Origin: Eubacteriaceae bacterium
GTDB taxonomy: Bacteria > Bacillota > Clostridia > Eubacteriales > Anaerofustaceae
Length of the DNA stretch: 64,000 bases
Assembly: GCA_017531485.1 (NCBI GenBank)
Contig: JAFXKY010000026.1
Span: 62,001 to 126,000 of the forward strand
Reading direction: 5' to 3'
Numbering within the stretch: position 1 is the stretch's first letter; each line of letters begins with the position of its first letter. Shown here piece after piece: positions 8,691 through 35,458 of this stretch. The translations under genes and the position numbers were made by a program. The notes beneath the pieces are model-generated. The model saw nothing but the letters and a program-made list of their open reading frames with translations. It was not told the origin of the DNA and ran no database searches.

Positions 8691-9073
8691 GTCCCCCTTA
8701 TTTATAAGGGGGATACAGGGGGATCGGGGAAAGCGAAGAAAGTGTATAGAATGGAGTGTTCAAAGTATTCATAAAATCATCCGCATCTTACGTCTTTTTT
8801 ACGGATCACATCCCCCTTGCCCCCTTATCCTAAGGGGGAATAATAAGGCTCTCTTAAAATAAGGGAGCTGTCACGAAGTGACTGAGGGATCGGTTGAACA
8901 GCACGGGAATATATGGATCGGTGTGTTCAAAGTATTCATAAAGTCATCCGCATCTGCACTGAATTCTTCTCGCTCATCCCCCTGTCACCTTCGCGGGAGC
9001 CGCCCGGTGACGTCCCCCTTACAGGGTAAGGGGGAAAGCGGCGCAATGCGCCGCAGGGGGATCGGGGAATCGT
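8691..9073. repeat. Composite intergenic repeat element, copy 1
   Basis: The 500-bp gap between proA and the YbaK-type gene has no gene. Bases 8691-8898 are closely matched in reverse complement by 16146-16352. It begins with GTCCCCCTTA-TTTA-TAAGGGGG, then CAGGGGGATCGGGGA, an internal TCATCCGCATCTTACG segment, a second CCCCTTATCCTAAGGGGG hairpin, and a GTCAC-GAA-GTGAC triloop hairpin. A further half-unit follows to 9073 with TTCAAAGTATTCATAAA repeated from 8770 and 8930, and another CCCCCTTACAGGGTAAGGGGG hairpin at about 9014-9034. No transposase is present, so a MITE-like or REP-like element is likely. Confidence 0.85.
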
Positions 9074-16380: not shown

Positions 16381-17775
16381 TTATTGATTTACAAAATTAT
16401 CGTAAACTTCATCAAGTTTTCCGATCTTCTTCAGGATTATTTCATCTATGTTATTTACGTAAAGTGAAAATTCCTTCGGCACGAACACGTTCTTATATCC
16501 CCCGTCGAAGATTATCTTCGTGGATGAGGACGCGCCTGCGGAGAAGATGCTGCGGTGATATCCCATCATGGCGATATTATACGCACATTCATGTCCCGGA
16601 AGGCTGTAACCGACGTTTTCCGCGCCGTTGAGGGCATTTTTCTGCTTATACATATAATACGGCTCATACCCCTTATCTTCCAGCACCTTGCGGGCGATAT
16701 TCTGATATACTCCGATGTCAACGGGGCTGTTCGCCTCCGCCTTCGTCAGATCTGCCGCACGCTTTACGCAGAGAGTGTGAAGGGTGATATTTGTAGGACC
16801 AAGGGATAAAACGTCGTTTATGCTCTTTTCATAATCCTTTTCCGTTTCGCCTTCAAGACCTAAGATAAGGTCGCAGTTGATGTCACAAAAGCCGATGCGG
16901 TCTGCCGTTTCGTAAAGTCGGAAAAATTCGTCGTTGGTGATGTTTCTCGAAATGCCGCGGAGAGTATCTTCATTGGTGGTCTGCGGATTAAGGGAGATCC
17001 TGCTGACGCCGCCGTCATACATCACCTTCAGCTTTTCTTCATCAAGGGTGTCTGCCCTGCCTGCCTCGACGGTAAATTCGATGCCCGACGGAATATACAT
17101 ATTGATCCTGTCAAGAAGGGTCTTCATCTGTCGTGAAGAGAGGATACTCGGCGTTCCTCCGCCAATATACACGTTTTCCGTCTTAATGCCCTTATCTTTC
17201 ATATATCCGGCGACGGATGAAAGTTCTTTCAGGAGCGCGTGGATATAAACCTCGCAGTCATCACTTCCGATTCCCGTGACGCGGGAGGGAAAAGAACAGT
17301 ATTTACACTTCATGGGGCATAACGGAATATGCACATAAAGGCTTGCGGAACGGCTGTCCCAATTATGGTACGGCTTTTGTACCTTATTTATTTTCCCAAG
17401 CAGGCTGATCTTTTCGTCTGATGCGGCGTAGTTCTCTTTAAAGAAGTTGTATATCTCCCCGTCGGAATATCCTTCTTCGGAGAGCTGAACGTATTTTTTC
17501 AGCGGCCTTACCCCCGTCATCGCCCCCCACGGGAATGTTTTTCCCGTAAGTTCCGAGAGTGTGAGGTAAATGAGGAGCTTGGCTGTCTTGGTGAGGATGT
17601 CTTCCAGAAGCGGGAGTGTTTTTTCTTTATTGTTTACGCACGTGCGTATTTTTTTCGCTCCGTCAACGGTTACGACCTCAACGGTAATATCATATTCCCC
17701 TGCGTCGAACAGATTTATTATCTCAACGAGCTGCGGGGTGTTGAATGAAGTTTCTTCGTTTAAAATCTTTAACAT
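16381..17775 (-). CDS. hemZ: HemZ-type coproporphyrinogen dehydrogenase-like radical SAM protein
   Basis: 464 aa. The radical SAM cluster motif is CPMKCKYCSFPS (CxxxCxxC), near residue 160, after LYVHIPLC. GGGTPS follows as the SAM glycine motif, then the HemN-like SLNPQTTNEDTLRGISR and D-LILGLEGET. The N-terminal 140 residues, ending in WGAMTGVRPLKK, are typical of HemZ from Firmicutes. The start at 17775 (ATG three bases after the preceding stop) is preferred over an in-frame ATG at 17844 inside the preceding gene. HemZ homologues are linked to anaerobic haem synthesis, but no other haem gene is present, so the substrate is open. It contains a near-perfect copy of the oriC-proximal palindrome at 17634-17649. 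Confidence 0.88.
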   Translation of the reverse strand: MLKILNEETSFNTPQLVEIINLFDAGEYDITVEVVTVDGAKKIRTCVNNKEKTLPLLEDILTKTAKLLIYLTLSELTGKTFPWGAMTGVRPLKKYVQLSEEGYSDGEIYNFFKENYAASDEKISLLGKINKVQKPYHNWDSRSASLYVHIPLCPMKCKYCSFPSRVTGIGSDDCEVYIHALLKELSSVAGYMKDKGIKTENVYIGGGTPSILSSRQMKTLLDRINMYIPSGIEFTVEAGRADTLDEEKLKVMYDGGVSRISLNPQTTNEDTLRGISRNITNDEFFRLYETADRIGFCDINCDLILGLEGETEKDYEKSINDVLSLGPTNITLHTLCVKRAADLTKAEANSPVDIGVYQNIARKVLEDKGYEPYYMYKQKNALNGAENVGYSLPGHECAYNIAMMGYHRSIFSAGASSSTKIIFDGGYKNVFVPKEFSLYVNNIDEIILKKIGKLDEVYDNFVNQ

Positions 17776-28888: not shown

Positions 28889-28904
28889 TTACGCACGTGC
28901 GTAA
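28889..28904. promoter_or_regulatory. Isolated TTACGCACGTGCGTAA palindrome
   Basis: A fully symmetric copy of the 16-bp motif arrayed at 33152-34212, inside a 22-bp perfect palindrome (28886-28907). It lies about 90 bp upstream of the methyltransferase start and 1.2 kb on the other side of oriC from the array. It may be an operator or a site of the same DNA-binding protein. Confidence 0.6.
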
Positions 28905-28992
28905 ATTTGTCAATAACGTAAATTTATGCTTTACAAACCGCACTTTTCCATTTATCATATTAATCCCCAAACAAAACATTATGGAGAAGCGT

Positions 28993-29799
28993 ATGACAGA
29001 TCACGTTGAAGAAAAAAAGAAAGTATCGGACACATTATTCATTCCCCTTTACGGCAAGGCTTATGTGACGAAAAAAGGTATCATCCTCAACGACCCGATG
29101 GCGGAAAAGATCATACAAGACAACGATTTCACTCCCGGCAGAAAATCAAAAAGCAGATTCCTTTCCTATTTCATGGCAATAAGGGCGAAGGTCTTTGATG
29201 ATTATGTTTCGGAGAAGATCGCTTCCCCCGGAGATACGGTGGTACTGAATCTCGGATGCGGTCTTGACGGAAGATCACTCAGGGTCGACAGAAAAAACAC
29301 TCTCTGGTACGACATCGACCTTTATGATGTGGCTCAAAAGCGGAAGATGTATTACGATGAAGATGAAAATTACAAGATCCTGCCCCGTGACGTCACCGAT
29401 GAAGGAATCTTTGACGGGATACCGGATGACCGCCCTGCGGTGATACTCATGGAAGGGCTTTGTATGTACCTGAAACGGGAGGAGCTGAAAAAGTTTTTCG
29501 CCCGTGCGGAAAGTCATTTCGGCGAAGTTCACATTCTTGCAGACTTTTACAGCGAAAAGGCGGCGAAGTTATCAAAATACAAAAACCCCATAAATGAAGT
29601 CGGAGTATATGAAGTTTACGGGCTTGATGATCCCCGCAAGGTTGAGTGCGGAAAATTAAAGTTCGTTTCATCCCGCGACATGAGCCCTTATCATCTTTCG
29701 GACGAGCTGCCCGCAACCGACAGGTTCATCTTCAGAAAGCTGTATGCAGGCAGTTTCGCAAGAGGGCTTTATAAGTTATACGAATACGAAAAGATCTGA
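28993..29799 (+). CDS. Class I SAM-dependent methyltransferase, leucine-carboxyl-methyltransferase-like
   Basis: 268 aa from the ATG at 28993, which has GGAGAAG 4 bp upstream. The in-frame ATG at 28981 overlaps that SD. The SAM-binding motif is VVLNLGCGLDGRSLRVD, then WYDIDLYDVAQKR as the acidic motif II, and VILMEGLCMYL later. This order is that of the LCM/PPM1 family (Pfam LCM, TehB-unrelated), whose bacterial members modify small polyketide-like molecules or unknown substrates. Stands alone. Substrate unknown. Confidence 0.85.
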   Translation: MTDHVEEKKKVSDTLFIPLYGKAYVTKKGIILNDPMAEKIIQDNDFTPGRKSKSRFLSYFMAIRAKVFDDYVSEKIASPGDTVVLNLGCGLDGRSLRVDRKNTLWYDIDLYDVAQKRKMYYDEDENYKILPRDVTDEGIFDGIPDDRPAVILMEGLCMYLKREELKKFFARAESHFGEVHILADFYSEKAAKLSKYKNPINEVGVYEVYGLDDPRKVECGKLKFVSSRDMSPYHLSDELPATDRFIFRKLYAGSFARGLYKLYEYEKI

Positions 29800-33078: not shown

Positions 33079-33104
33079 TGAAGGGGAAAATACGGATAAT
33101 AAGA

Positions 33105-33133
33105 CAGGTACCGAAAACGGTACCTGCTTTTTT
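33105..33133 (+). terminator. Terminator of dnaN
   Basis: 9-bp perfect stem CAGGTACCG/CGGTACCTG with an AAAA loop, then CTTTTTT. Confidence 0.92.
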
Positions 33134-33151: not shown

Positions 33152-33222
33152 TTGCGCATGTGCGTAAATTGCTGTGTACGCATCTGCGTAAATAACAGCT
33201 ATATATCTACGCATGTGCGTAA
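33152..33222 (-). repeat. Three non-coding copies of the 16-bp palindrome
   Basis: Sites at 33152-33167, 33176-33191 and 33207-33222, read on the minus strand as TTACGCA-NN-TGCG(T/C)AN. The spacing is 24 and 31 bp between starts, shorter than in the coding array. The last overlaps the stop codon of the repeat protein gene (TACGCACATGCGTAG). All share the orientation of the coding copies: the TTACGCA half is perfect in every one. Confidence 0.85.
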
Positions 33223-34517
33223 CCAGCTTTACTCCCCCGGCGCATTTCCGCAAACGTGGGGAAGCGGCGGTTTTTGCCGTAAAAGGCGGCGATGTCGAAG
33301 TCTGTGTCAACGGGAATGTCCGCATCAAAGACCATCTGCTCACCCTGCCCGTCTTTATTCTTCAATTTTTCACTCATCTCCCTGCGGTATTCCCCGTTTG
33401 CCTTCTCGAGCTCCTCTTTTATCCTTGCGATGTCTTTTTTATGCCAGCTGCGGAGGACCTTTCTCCAGTCGCGGAGCTTCTGCCATGAATCATTTTGTGT
33501 GTAGAAGTCGAAAAATCTGTATATGTCAACGCCCGTAAGGGAAAATGCCGCCGCATACTCCTTTATTTCCTCAAAGGACGGAGCCTTTCCCGCAGGACGG
33601 GACAGAAGATCTTTCCTGAGTTCCTTGTAATAACTTTCGTAGTCCTCAAGAAAATCTCCGAACGTCAGACTTCCTTCGTTGAAACTGCTGTCTTCATCAT
33701 TGGGTGTGTACGCACCTGCGTAAACCGGTTCGGACTGCTCAACCGGTTCTTCACTCTCATTTGTATACGCATCTGCGTAAATTTCATTGATCTCAGAAGC
33801 GTTTTCATTCTCATTGATATACGCACATGCGTAAACTTCCTCGCTCTGAGGTTCGTCTTCACTTTCGTCTGTATACGCAACTGCGTAAACTGTATCAGTC
33901 GGCTCACTTCCTTCATCATTACCGATGTACGCACCTGCGTAAACTTCATTGATCTCAGAAGCGTTTTCATTCTTATTGATACACGCACGTGCGTAAATTT
34001 CCTCGCTCTGAGGTTCGTCTTCACTGCCGTCTGTATACGCAGCTGCGTAAACTACGTCAGTCGGCTCACTTCCTTCATCATTACCGATATACGCACCTGC
34101 GTAAATGTCTTCAGTCTGCTCCCCTTCTTCCGCGTCAGCAATATACGCACCTGCGTAATTTTCTTCAATCTGAGGTTCATCCTCATTCTTATCCGTATAC
34201 GCATGTGCGTAAATATTATCATAAGACATCGTATCCCCACGGTCGTTGTCAGAATGTTCATCTGCCGTTTTTACGGGCGAAGGGAAATACGAGGTATTAT
34301 CAGTATAATAAGAAAACCCCGCGTATGCCGCATCACACAGCCCGTATGAACCGTCAAATGAAACGTCGCCGCTGAAAAAGCTGTTTTTATCATCTTCCCC
34401 ATATCCGCTTTCATCAAATGAGATGTCCGCAAGGGAATATTCTTTCGTCGGGACAGCTTCATCAAACGTTACGGAGAGTGGGAAATCGGTATCGTTATAT
34501 ATTTCATCGTTTTCCAT
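33207..34517 (-). CDS. Acidic repeat protein with replisome-organiser-like C-terminus and embedded iteron-like array
   Basis: 436 aa, SD GGAAAGG before the ATG at 34517. Residues 1-100 are acidic and aromatic-rich without known domain. Residues about 101-270 are ten 18-residue repeats of the form YAxAY followed by an acidic spacer (for example IGNDEGSEPTD, TDGSEDEPQSEE, INKNENASEINE). Residues about 280-370 hold a helical domain with APSFEEIKEYAAA, then VDIYRFFDFYTQNDSWQ and DWRKVLRSWHKKD. This phenylalanine/tryptophan spacing resembles the C-terminal part of DUF4373/DnaD-like phage replisome organisers. The gene points towards oriC, against replication, next to the DUF4373 gene. A function in replication initiation is inference. 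Confidence 0.75.
   Translation of the reverse strand: MENDEIYNDTDFPLSVTFDEAVPTKEYSLADISFDESGYGEDDKNSFFSGDVSFDGSYGLCDAAYAGFSYYTDNTSYFPSPVKTADEHSDNDRGDTMSYDNIYAHAYTDKNEDEPQIEENYAGAYIADAEEGEQTEDIYAGAYIGNDEGSEPTDVVYAAAYTDGSEDEPQSEEIYARACINKNENASEINEVYAGAYIGNDEGSEPTDTVYAVAYTDESEDEPQSEEVYACAYINENENASEINEIYADAYTNESEEPVEQSEPVYAGAYTPNDEDSSFNEGSLTFGDFLEDYESYYKELRKDLLSRPAGKAPSFEEIKEYAAAFSLTGVDIYRFFDFYTQNDSWQKLRDWRKVLRSWHKKDIARIKEELEKANGEYRREMSEKLKNKDGQGEQMVFDADIPVDTDFDIAAFYGKNRRFPTFAEMRRGSKAGYAHA
33708..34212 (-). repeat. Ten-copy 54-bp tandem array with a 16-bp palindrome (iteron-like)
   Basis: Palindrome starts are 33708, 33765, 33819, 33873, 33927, 33981, 34035, 34089, 34143 and 34197: one 57-bp step, then eight of exactly 54 bp. 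On the minus strand each reads TTACGCA-NN-TGCGTRY-like: the first Ala codon is GCA in 10 of 10, the second GCG in 10 of 10, and the first Tyr TAC in 10 of 10. The residue between them changes (G, D, C, V, G, R, A, G, G, H). The spacer sequence diverges more than the palindrome. It is a coding repeat under apparent DNA-level constraint. Confidence 0.92.
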
Positions 34518-34768
34518 AAAAAGCCTTTCCTTGTTTCATAAGTTCCCGTTGGTACTTCTTCCGCCCTCACCAACCGTAAGCGTCAGCGTGAATTGTAAAT
34601 CGCAACGCTGTCGGAAGATGATCGATGTTCACCATACTCATACGGAGTATGTCAAAATAAAAAGAGAAAGATTAAAAATAAAGTCGCCGCCGGCGCAGCG
34701 TCCCTTCCACTGAATTCAATACTCACGTCTGAACATATATAAACCGATGGAGCATTTACCCCCGGTCG

Positions 34769-34927
34769 TTCCCCCTTGAGAGTAAGGGGGTAAGGGGGAT
34801 CTGAATTAAAGATAAATACATTATTACAGATAAAGTGTTCTGCGAACTCTGCCTGCCCCTTTCAGGGGAAGGTGTCGGGCGAAGCCCGACGGAAGGGGTG
34901 GTGTGAGGGCGCAGCCACCCCACACCC
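34769..34927. repeat. Mosaic of intergenic hairpin repeats
   Basis: The 521-bp gap 34518-35038 has no gene. It holds CCCCCTTGAGAGTAAGGGGG (34771-34790) of the dispersed family, the GTCGGGC-GAA-GCCCGAC hairpin (34874-34890) with CCCCTTTCAGGGG beside it, and a CATACTC/GAGTATG hairpin at 34633-34651. The phased CTTTAC tract follows. Confidence 0.75.
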
Positions 34928-34930
34928 TTT

Positions 34931-35000
34931 CTTTACTTGACTTTACTGTGCTTTACTTTTCTTTACTTTCCTTTTCTTTCCTTTACTTTACTTTGTGTAC
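34931..35000. repeat. Seven 10-bp-phased CTTTAC-type repeats
   Basis: Decamers start at 34931, 34941, 34951, 34961, 34971, 34981 and 34991. Five begin CTTTAC, the others CTTTTC and CTTTGT. One strand is almost purely pyrimidine. The exact 10-bp period equals about one helical turn, so all units face the same side of the DNA. It lies between the DUF4373 gene and the repeat protein gene. Confidence 0.85.
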
Positions 35001-35009
35001 TTTACGGCA

Positions 35010-35044
35010 ACCTGAACGGGGATTTTCTCCCCGTAAACTCAGGT
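35010..35044. other. Stem-loop at the stop codon of the DUF4373 gene
   Basis: ACCTGA-ACGGGG, 7-base loop, CCCCGT-AAAC-TCAGGT: a 12-bp stem with one 4-base bulge, covering the stop codon (35039-35041). No T-run follows on the minus strand, so it may be a structural or origin element rather than a simple terminator. Confidence 0.55.
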
Positions 35045-35458
35045 GATGGTGATGTGTGACGGAATGGGGTTATCGATGGTGTTGATAAGCATATAATCCT
35101 TCCTGATGGAAACCTTTGTGCGCTTTGAGGTAGCGTCGATATAGATCTTCTGGATGAGTTCGCTTGTGAGGACGGAATGCTTTGTGAAGAGGGTACTGTT
35201 GAAGATGCCTCTGTTTAAGAGCTCTGTGAGGACGTCCTGCAGGAGGGATGGGTTTATGTTTATTTCCCTTGCGAATAATATCTTCACATCGTCGTTCCAT
35301 TCGAGGTAGTAACCTTTTTCGCCGAAGATCTTCTGGTGAAGTTTGATGTATACGTAATATCCCGGAGGGCCGTATTTTGCCGTCACGAGGTTTACAGGTG
35401 TGCTGTCCGCACAGTCAAGGGGGAAATAATCAAGTGCTTCTTTTTTTGGTCTTGCCAT
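35039..35458 (-). CDS. DUF4373 (Lin1244/Lin1753-type) replisome-organiser DNA-binding domain protein
   Basis: 139 aa. It starts MARPKKEALDYFPLDC, followed by AKYGPPGYYVYIKLHQKIFGEKGYYLEWNDDVKILFAREININPSLLQDVL-type sequence. This is the N-terminal winged-helix domain common in replication proteins of Listeria and other Firmicutes phages. Those proteins are usually 250 or more residues with a second C-terminal domain. Here the chain stops after the first domain, and a candidate second domain is in the next gene downstream (33207-34517). SD AAGGAG. Probably a phage or plasmid-derived gene, possibly domesticated at oriC. Confidence 0.82.
   Translation of the reverse strand: MARPKKEALDYFPLDCADSTPVNLVTAKYGPPGYYVYIKLHQKIFGEKGYYLEWNDDVKILFAREININPSLLQDVLTELLNRGIFNSTLFTKHSVLTSELIQKIYIDATSKRTKVSIRKDYMLINTIDNPIPSHITIT

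Follow-up and report, generated by a model that had tools for sequence, protein, structure and literature searches.

Two open reading frames (ORFs) encoding proteins of 436 and 139 amino acids (aa) lie side by side in the window (the whole stretch of 64,000 nucleotides that was analysed), 521 bases apart and no more than 2.4 kb from dnaN; dnaA, dnaN and the purL operon are all encoded on the other strand (Table 1). In number, orientation and distance the two genes agree with an earlier note on this DNA, which had read them as a split pair of replisome-organiser-like genes. The ATG of the 436-aa ORF is preceded by an SD-like AAGGAAAGG. For the gap between the genes, the same note had described a phased tract and hairpin repeats; the A+T-rich tract is present, with a period of 5, while at least one type of hairpin repeat in the gap (the CCCCCTTA... 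type) recurs elsewhere in the window, and that type is therefore not specific to the locus. REP-like intergenic palindromic repeats (CCCCCTTAC/CCCCCTTAT) are scattered over the window at 8809, 16050, 16216, 34782, ~28770 and ~29900, and an Rfam search of the window returned tRNAs only. The most unusual feature of the locus, absent from the earlier note, is an array of palindromes (TACGCANNTGCGTA) with 13 sites and a span of 33153-34211.

Table 1 Coordinates of the genes, palindromes and other features in the window.
Feature	Position	Strand	Description
Lone palindrome, exact	17635-17648		In minus-strand coding sequence, HemZ-like by inspection; reads K-I-R-T-C-V-N-N; congener sequence differs there
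Lone palindrome, exact	28890-28903		Just upstream of SAM-dependent methyltransferase-like gene (ORF 28897-29799 as listed; true start likely further in)
Two palindromes past the stop codon	33153-33190		One-mismatch copy at 33153, exact copy at 33177; in the interval on which dnaN and the 436-aa gene converge
436-aa ORF	33207-34517	-	Open reading frame
Eleventh in-frame palindrome, exact	33208-33221		3' end of the 436-aa ORF; last bases give the start of the TAG stop (Y-A-H-A-stop)
Main array	33709-34211		10 palindromes TACGCANNTGCGTA, 9 of them exact and the copy at 33982 off by one base; spaced at 54 bp, once at 57 bp
Remainder of non-coding gap	34518-34926		Intergenic repeat-like hairpin sequences, one kind also elsewhere in the window
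Linker-coding relic	34927-35005	-	A+T-rich, period 5, not in the frame of the 139-aa gene
139-aa ORF	35039-35458	-	Lin1244_N/DUF4373 winged-helix fragment of a phage-type replisome organiser

Relation to phage-type replisome organisers

The 139-aa protein matches Lin1244_N (PF14297) at 78.4 bits against a curated cut-off of 25 (E 7e-22) and, at E 2e-39, PHROG 2562 ('replication initiation protein'), of which it covers positions 2-129 out of 290, and it aligns to phage 'replication initiation' proteins in their N-terminal part only. Its predicted structure is confident and winged-helix-like (pLDDT 87.5), and a fold search of the PDB with this model gave weak winged-helix matches to CadC, CodY, the N-terminal domain of DnaD and TubR (best E 0.05). 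These results uphold the reading that the protein corresponds to the winged-helix N-terminal half of phage replisome organisers of the Lin1244/DUF4373 type. The linker and C-terminal part are not found on the same polypeptide, and we classed the ORF as a fragment rather than as a full member of the family; the Lin1244 genes of relatives that were read are 205-301 aa long. The tract on the 3' side of its stop codon is near-identical in DNA to the lysine-rich QSKVKESKVKKSK linker of the Lin1244 family, aligning to the linker DNA of L063 over a 46-nt block (score 63; best of 50 shuffles 34) and to that of L072 over a 69-nt block (score 77; best of 50 shuffles 36). Because this family linker DNA now lies out of frame with the 139-aa ORF and contains stops (it translates as TQSKVKERKGK*RKVKHSKVK), the 139-aa gene looks truncated, a remnant whose ancestor ran on into the linker. 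Lin1244 homologues are scattered among the relatives, and our literature search found no paper on DUF4373/Lin1244 replication proteins. A second Lin1244 gene in the same genome (G000:C73:2-466, L012), cut by the contig end, has 49% identity to the 139-aa protein.

The 436-aa protein consists of an acidic N-terminal part, 18-aa repeats each with Y-A-x-A-Y, and a C-terminal helical domain at about residues 305-375. Searches of Pfam and NCBIfam gave nothing credible for this protein, and tblastn gave no match in phages for its C-terminus. The F..FY...W...DW...L..W motif pointed out earlier is present, and it matches the C-terminus of fused homologues in a 10-protein database, namely a 295-aa protein of the congener (G001, L004:1390-2277; 1e-9) and L064, a homologue in the same family (1.2e-5). 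A match to PHROG 15768 (4.5e-5) is common to the 436-aa C-terminus and the fused protein. The model of this C-terminus is all-helical and of low confidence (pLDDT 64), and gave no match below E 1 in a PDB search. By sequence, then, the 436-aa gene ends in a part that is similar to the C-terminal domain of Lin1244-type replisome organisers, and as the fused congener protein matches both halves, its alignments support the reading that the 139-aa protein and the 436-aa C-terminus correspond to the halves of one replisome-organiser protein. Compared with the Lin1244/Lin1753 family (DUF4373, PF14297, PHROG 2562), in which these domains are fused, the locus differs in having separate ORFs with a relic of the linker between them and an unrelated repeat region in the second ORF.

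The position of the pair beside dnaN is not conserved, because in the congener uppP comes after dnaN, with neither gene of the pair there, and the fused gene sits on another contig; nothing ties the pair to dnaN. This bears on the proposal in the earlier note that the pair forms a two-subunit or domesticated initiator acting at oriC. Both halves of the fused protein are indeed adjacent close to dnaN, but with the linker relic and its stops after the 139-aa gene, with a congener that lacks the pair at this place, and with ordinary ParB genes, exact parS and DnaA boxes in the genome, we consider such an initiator highly improbable. The replisome-organiser part of the locus is an ordinary decayed phage-type gene. 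Besides a ParB pair on contig C15, the genome contains three more ParB-like genes (G000 C68, C19 and C50).

Palindromes in and beyond the 436-aa ORF

Eleven copies of TACGCANNTGCGTA lie in frame in the 436-aa ORF, 10 of them exact and mostly in 54-bp steps, and two more follow past the stop codon, where they are preceded by a terminator-like hairpin of dnaN (33104-33127). Allowing two or fewer mismatches, the window holds 18 matches to the palindrome, compared with a mean of 1.4 and a maximum of 6 in 100 shuffles. The genome as a whole has 19 exact sites and none of a reversed control pattern. Across all 60 related genomes there is one site in total, the congener has no exact one, and the array was seen in one draft genome only.

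All eleven in-frame copies start at codon position 1 and read TAC GCA NNT GCG TA/TG, which encodes Y-A-x-A and then Y, C or a stop, so that the Y-A-x-A-Y of each 18-aa repeat is the translation of a palindrome. The codons for Tyr and the two Ala are TAC, GCA and GCG in 11 of 11 sites, versus mixed usage outside the sites. Among nine 54-bp units, pairwise identity is 98% in the arms, 55% in the spacers and 37% at the two central bases, and spacer third positions have diverged as much as first and second positions. Third-position columns are invariant in 4 of 4 cases within the palindrome versus 1 of 14 in the spacers (Fisher p 0.0016, which is only indicative as the nine units are related by duplication and the tests are not fully independent). 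Since synonymous bases would not become fixed if only the protein were under selection, and since the sites run past the stop codon, this pattern of bases indicates selection on the DNA.

Beyond the array, we found eight lone exact sites in the genome where 0.09-0.11 would be expected under Markov models; one-mismatch sites are at control level genome-wide. Coding sequence contains six of the eight, and the other two are upstream of genes. At four coding sites that could be compared with the congener, none is exact there (0/4): in clpC and cotJA the peptide is kept and the palindrome is altered by base substitutions, and in hemZ and a GDPD gene the protein differs too.

It could be argued that slippage simply multiplied the 54- and 162-bp units of an acidic repeat protein under low constraint, with the palindrome being incidental. 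Repeat proteins do expand readily, and the array region contains a 162-bp higher-order duplication with 92% matches. However, passive growth would leave unexplained why arms are kept while spacers and centres diverge, why sites are found past the stop codon and singly elsewhere, and why the 14-mer is identical to the operator that other Clostridia have before their XRE gene (described below), which makes it a quite improbable origin of the pattern.

Sites before XRE-type genes in Clostridia

Scanning contigs of 84,980 GTDB species for two palindromes 25-55 bp apart, we obtained 14 contigs. Twelve of these are from Clostridia, and in each of them the pair immediately precedes a gene for an XRE-type protein of ~80 aa, which in L025 is incomplete because the stretch ends within it. 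In whole-genome searches, 12 of 12 of these Clostridia have exactly two copies of TACGCANNTGCGTA, only before the XRE gene; the genomes were picked by the site pair, so the count speaks for paired sites and leaves aside XRE genes with single or altered ones. The remaining two contigs come from a single freshwater genome, where the copies are tandem and intergenic and no XRE gene was detected near them; L023 has four exact copies and one degenerate copy of TACGCACTTGCGTA with a 43-bp period, and L022 has two more, also intergenic.

The genome studied here has one clear XRE ortholog (C66:2321-2557) with the same type of recognition helix, which is nearly invariant among the orthologs. Upstream of it are two abutting degenerate sites, TACGCATATGCGAA-TACGCGCAGGCGTA, with 1 and 2 mismatches, and the congener likewise has an XRE ortholog with a two-mismatch site. 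In two distant XRE relatives with a different recognition helix, the upstream stretch examined contains no such site. The XRE protein shows similarity to controller/repressor proteins, C.BclI among them (6.7e-6), and a literature search for the operator TACGCANNTGCGTA found no paper on it among the matches listed. As the palindrome of the array is identical to the sites that precede the XRE gene in relatives, the array sites are probably docking sites for the cell's own small XRE regulator, although another DNA-binding protein of the same specificity could own them. The regulator is like autoregulated small XRE/Cro proteins, for example the restriction-modification controller C.BclI, in its ~80-aa size, its helix-turn-helix and the paired palindromes before its own gene in the 12 Clostridia; it is unlike them in that this genome has 13 further sites in and after coding sequence and eight lone ones.

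The identity of the site also bears on a further possibility, that the array is a phage-type origin which lies within a replisome-organiser gene and to which the 139-aa winged-helix protein binds, in the manner of lambda O. Phage origins inside initiator genes are established, with lambda O as the example, and like those iteron origins the array places repeated palindromic sites in a replication-gene-like ORF; the 139-aa protein is moreover a confidently folded winged helix of a replication-initiation family. Yet in 12 genomes this 14-mer serves an unrelated XRE gene as its operator and has no copies other than those two, and the 139-aa gene is truncated. Unlike in lambda-type origins, the homologous initiator genes are without sites: the other Lin1244 loci examined (in relatives, in the congener and in the available part of the paralogue in this genome) have neither the site nor a recurrent palindrome with 6-bp arms. 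We regard an iteron origin as distinctly unlikely.

Possible roles of the array

An operator array in coding sequence is unusual, and as a feature of the sequence it is well supported. Its regulatory output is not evident, because it has no helical phasing (54 bp being ~5.1 turns) and is at no recognisable promoter, none being seen at the array for either the 436-aa or the 139-aa gene. The reading that we favour, with some reserve, is that of a decayed phage-type replisome organiser combined with an amplified XRE operator array that acts as a reservoir of sites or a nucleoprotein element near oriC. Of the decayed organiser gene, the N-terminal half would be left as the 139-aa ORF with the linker relic, and the 436-aa ORF would carry a copy of the C-terminal domain at its end. 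Operator sites for the ~80-aa XRE/Cro-type regulator of the cell would have been amplified in frame in the 436-aa ORF and past its stop, where XRE dimers may occupy the 13 sites. The array could then serve as a binding-site reservoir or a nucleoprotein block beside oriC that titrates XRE from the weaker sites at its own promoter; such titration is plausible because the promoter sites of the XRE gene match less well than those of the array. An origin-proximal array would double early in replication, and a role in timing is conjecture.

Silencing offers another use for the same sites, with XRE bound along the gene body as a repressor roadblock that blocks transcription of the foreign, phage-derived 436-aa gene. 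The sites do span the coding body of a foreign-looking gene and continue beyond its end, and the likeness of the XRE protein to controller/repressor proteins would fit. But no site lies at the start of the 436-aa or the 139-aa gene, eleven in-frame sites would be costlier to maintain than one promoter operator, and the eight lone sites in unrelated genes would be left unexplained; we judge silencing unlikely. Equally improbable in our view is a wider role that XRE, a conserved self-regulator, would have taken on in this lineage as a chromosome-wide DNA organiser or replication-timed regulator; the dense in-frame array beside oriC, doubled early in every round of replication, would be its sink or loading zone, and more selected sites would be spread over other coding sequences.

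We also considered the array as a chromosomal centromere and rejected it, as ParB genes and exact parS exist and the array is not needed for that role; with these and the DnaA boxes present, neither segregation nor initiation needs it. A known comparison for the favoured reservoir is datA of Escherichia coli, a titration or reservoir locus. Like datA, the array would be a cluster of binding sites (here predicted) of a chromosomal regulator, at a distance from the promoters that this regulator targets, whereas its sites are for an XRE protein rather than DnaA, they are in frame within an ORF, and titration by them is putative. If the reservoir reading is true, a coding sequence has been shaped by selection to bear regulator sites in bulk beside the origin, outside promoters. 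With two sites per genome in the 12 other genomes, the system would offer a clean before/after comparison of a self-regulator gaining a large non-promoter array.

Paired sites also occur on viral contigs, which have no long array. On the virus-classed contig L032, sites of this kind accompany a phage-like XRE gene, and another such contig (L029:7927-8286) has three TACGCAGGTGCGTA sites, one of them inside a primase-like ORF and again reading Y-A-G-A-Y. In L015 and L027, a gene with an MK(I/V)AVIGSR start is divergent from the XRE gene; by inspection it encodes a SLOG-like nucleotide-binding protein, a possible functional partner.
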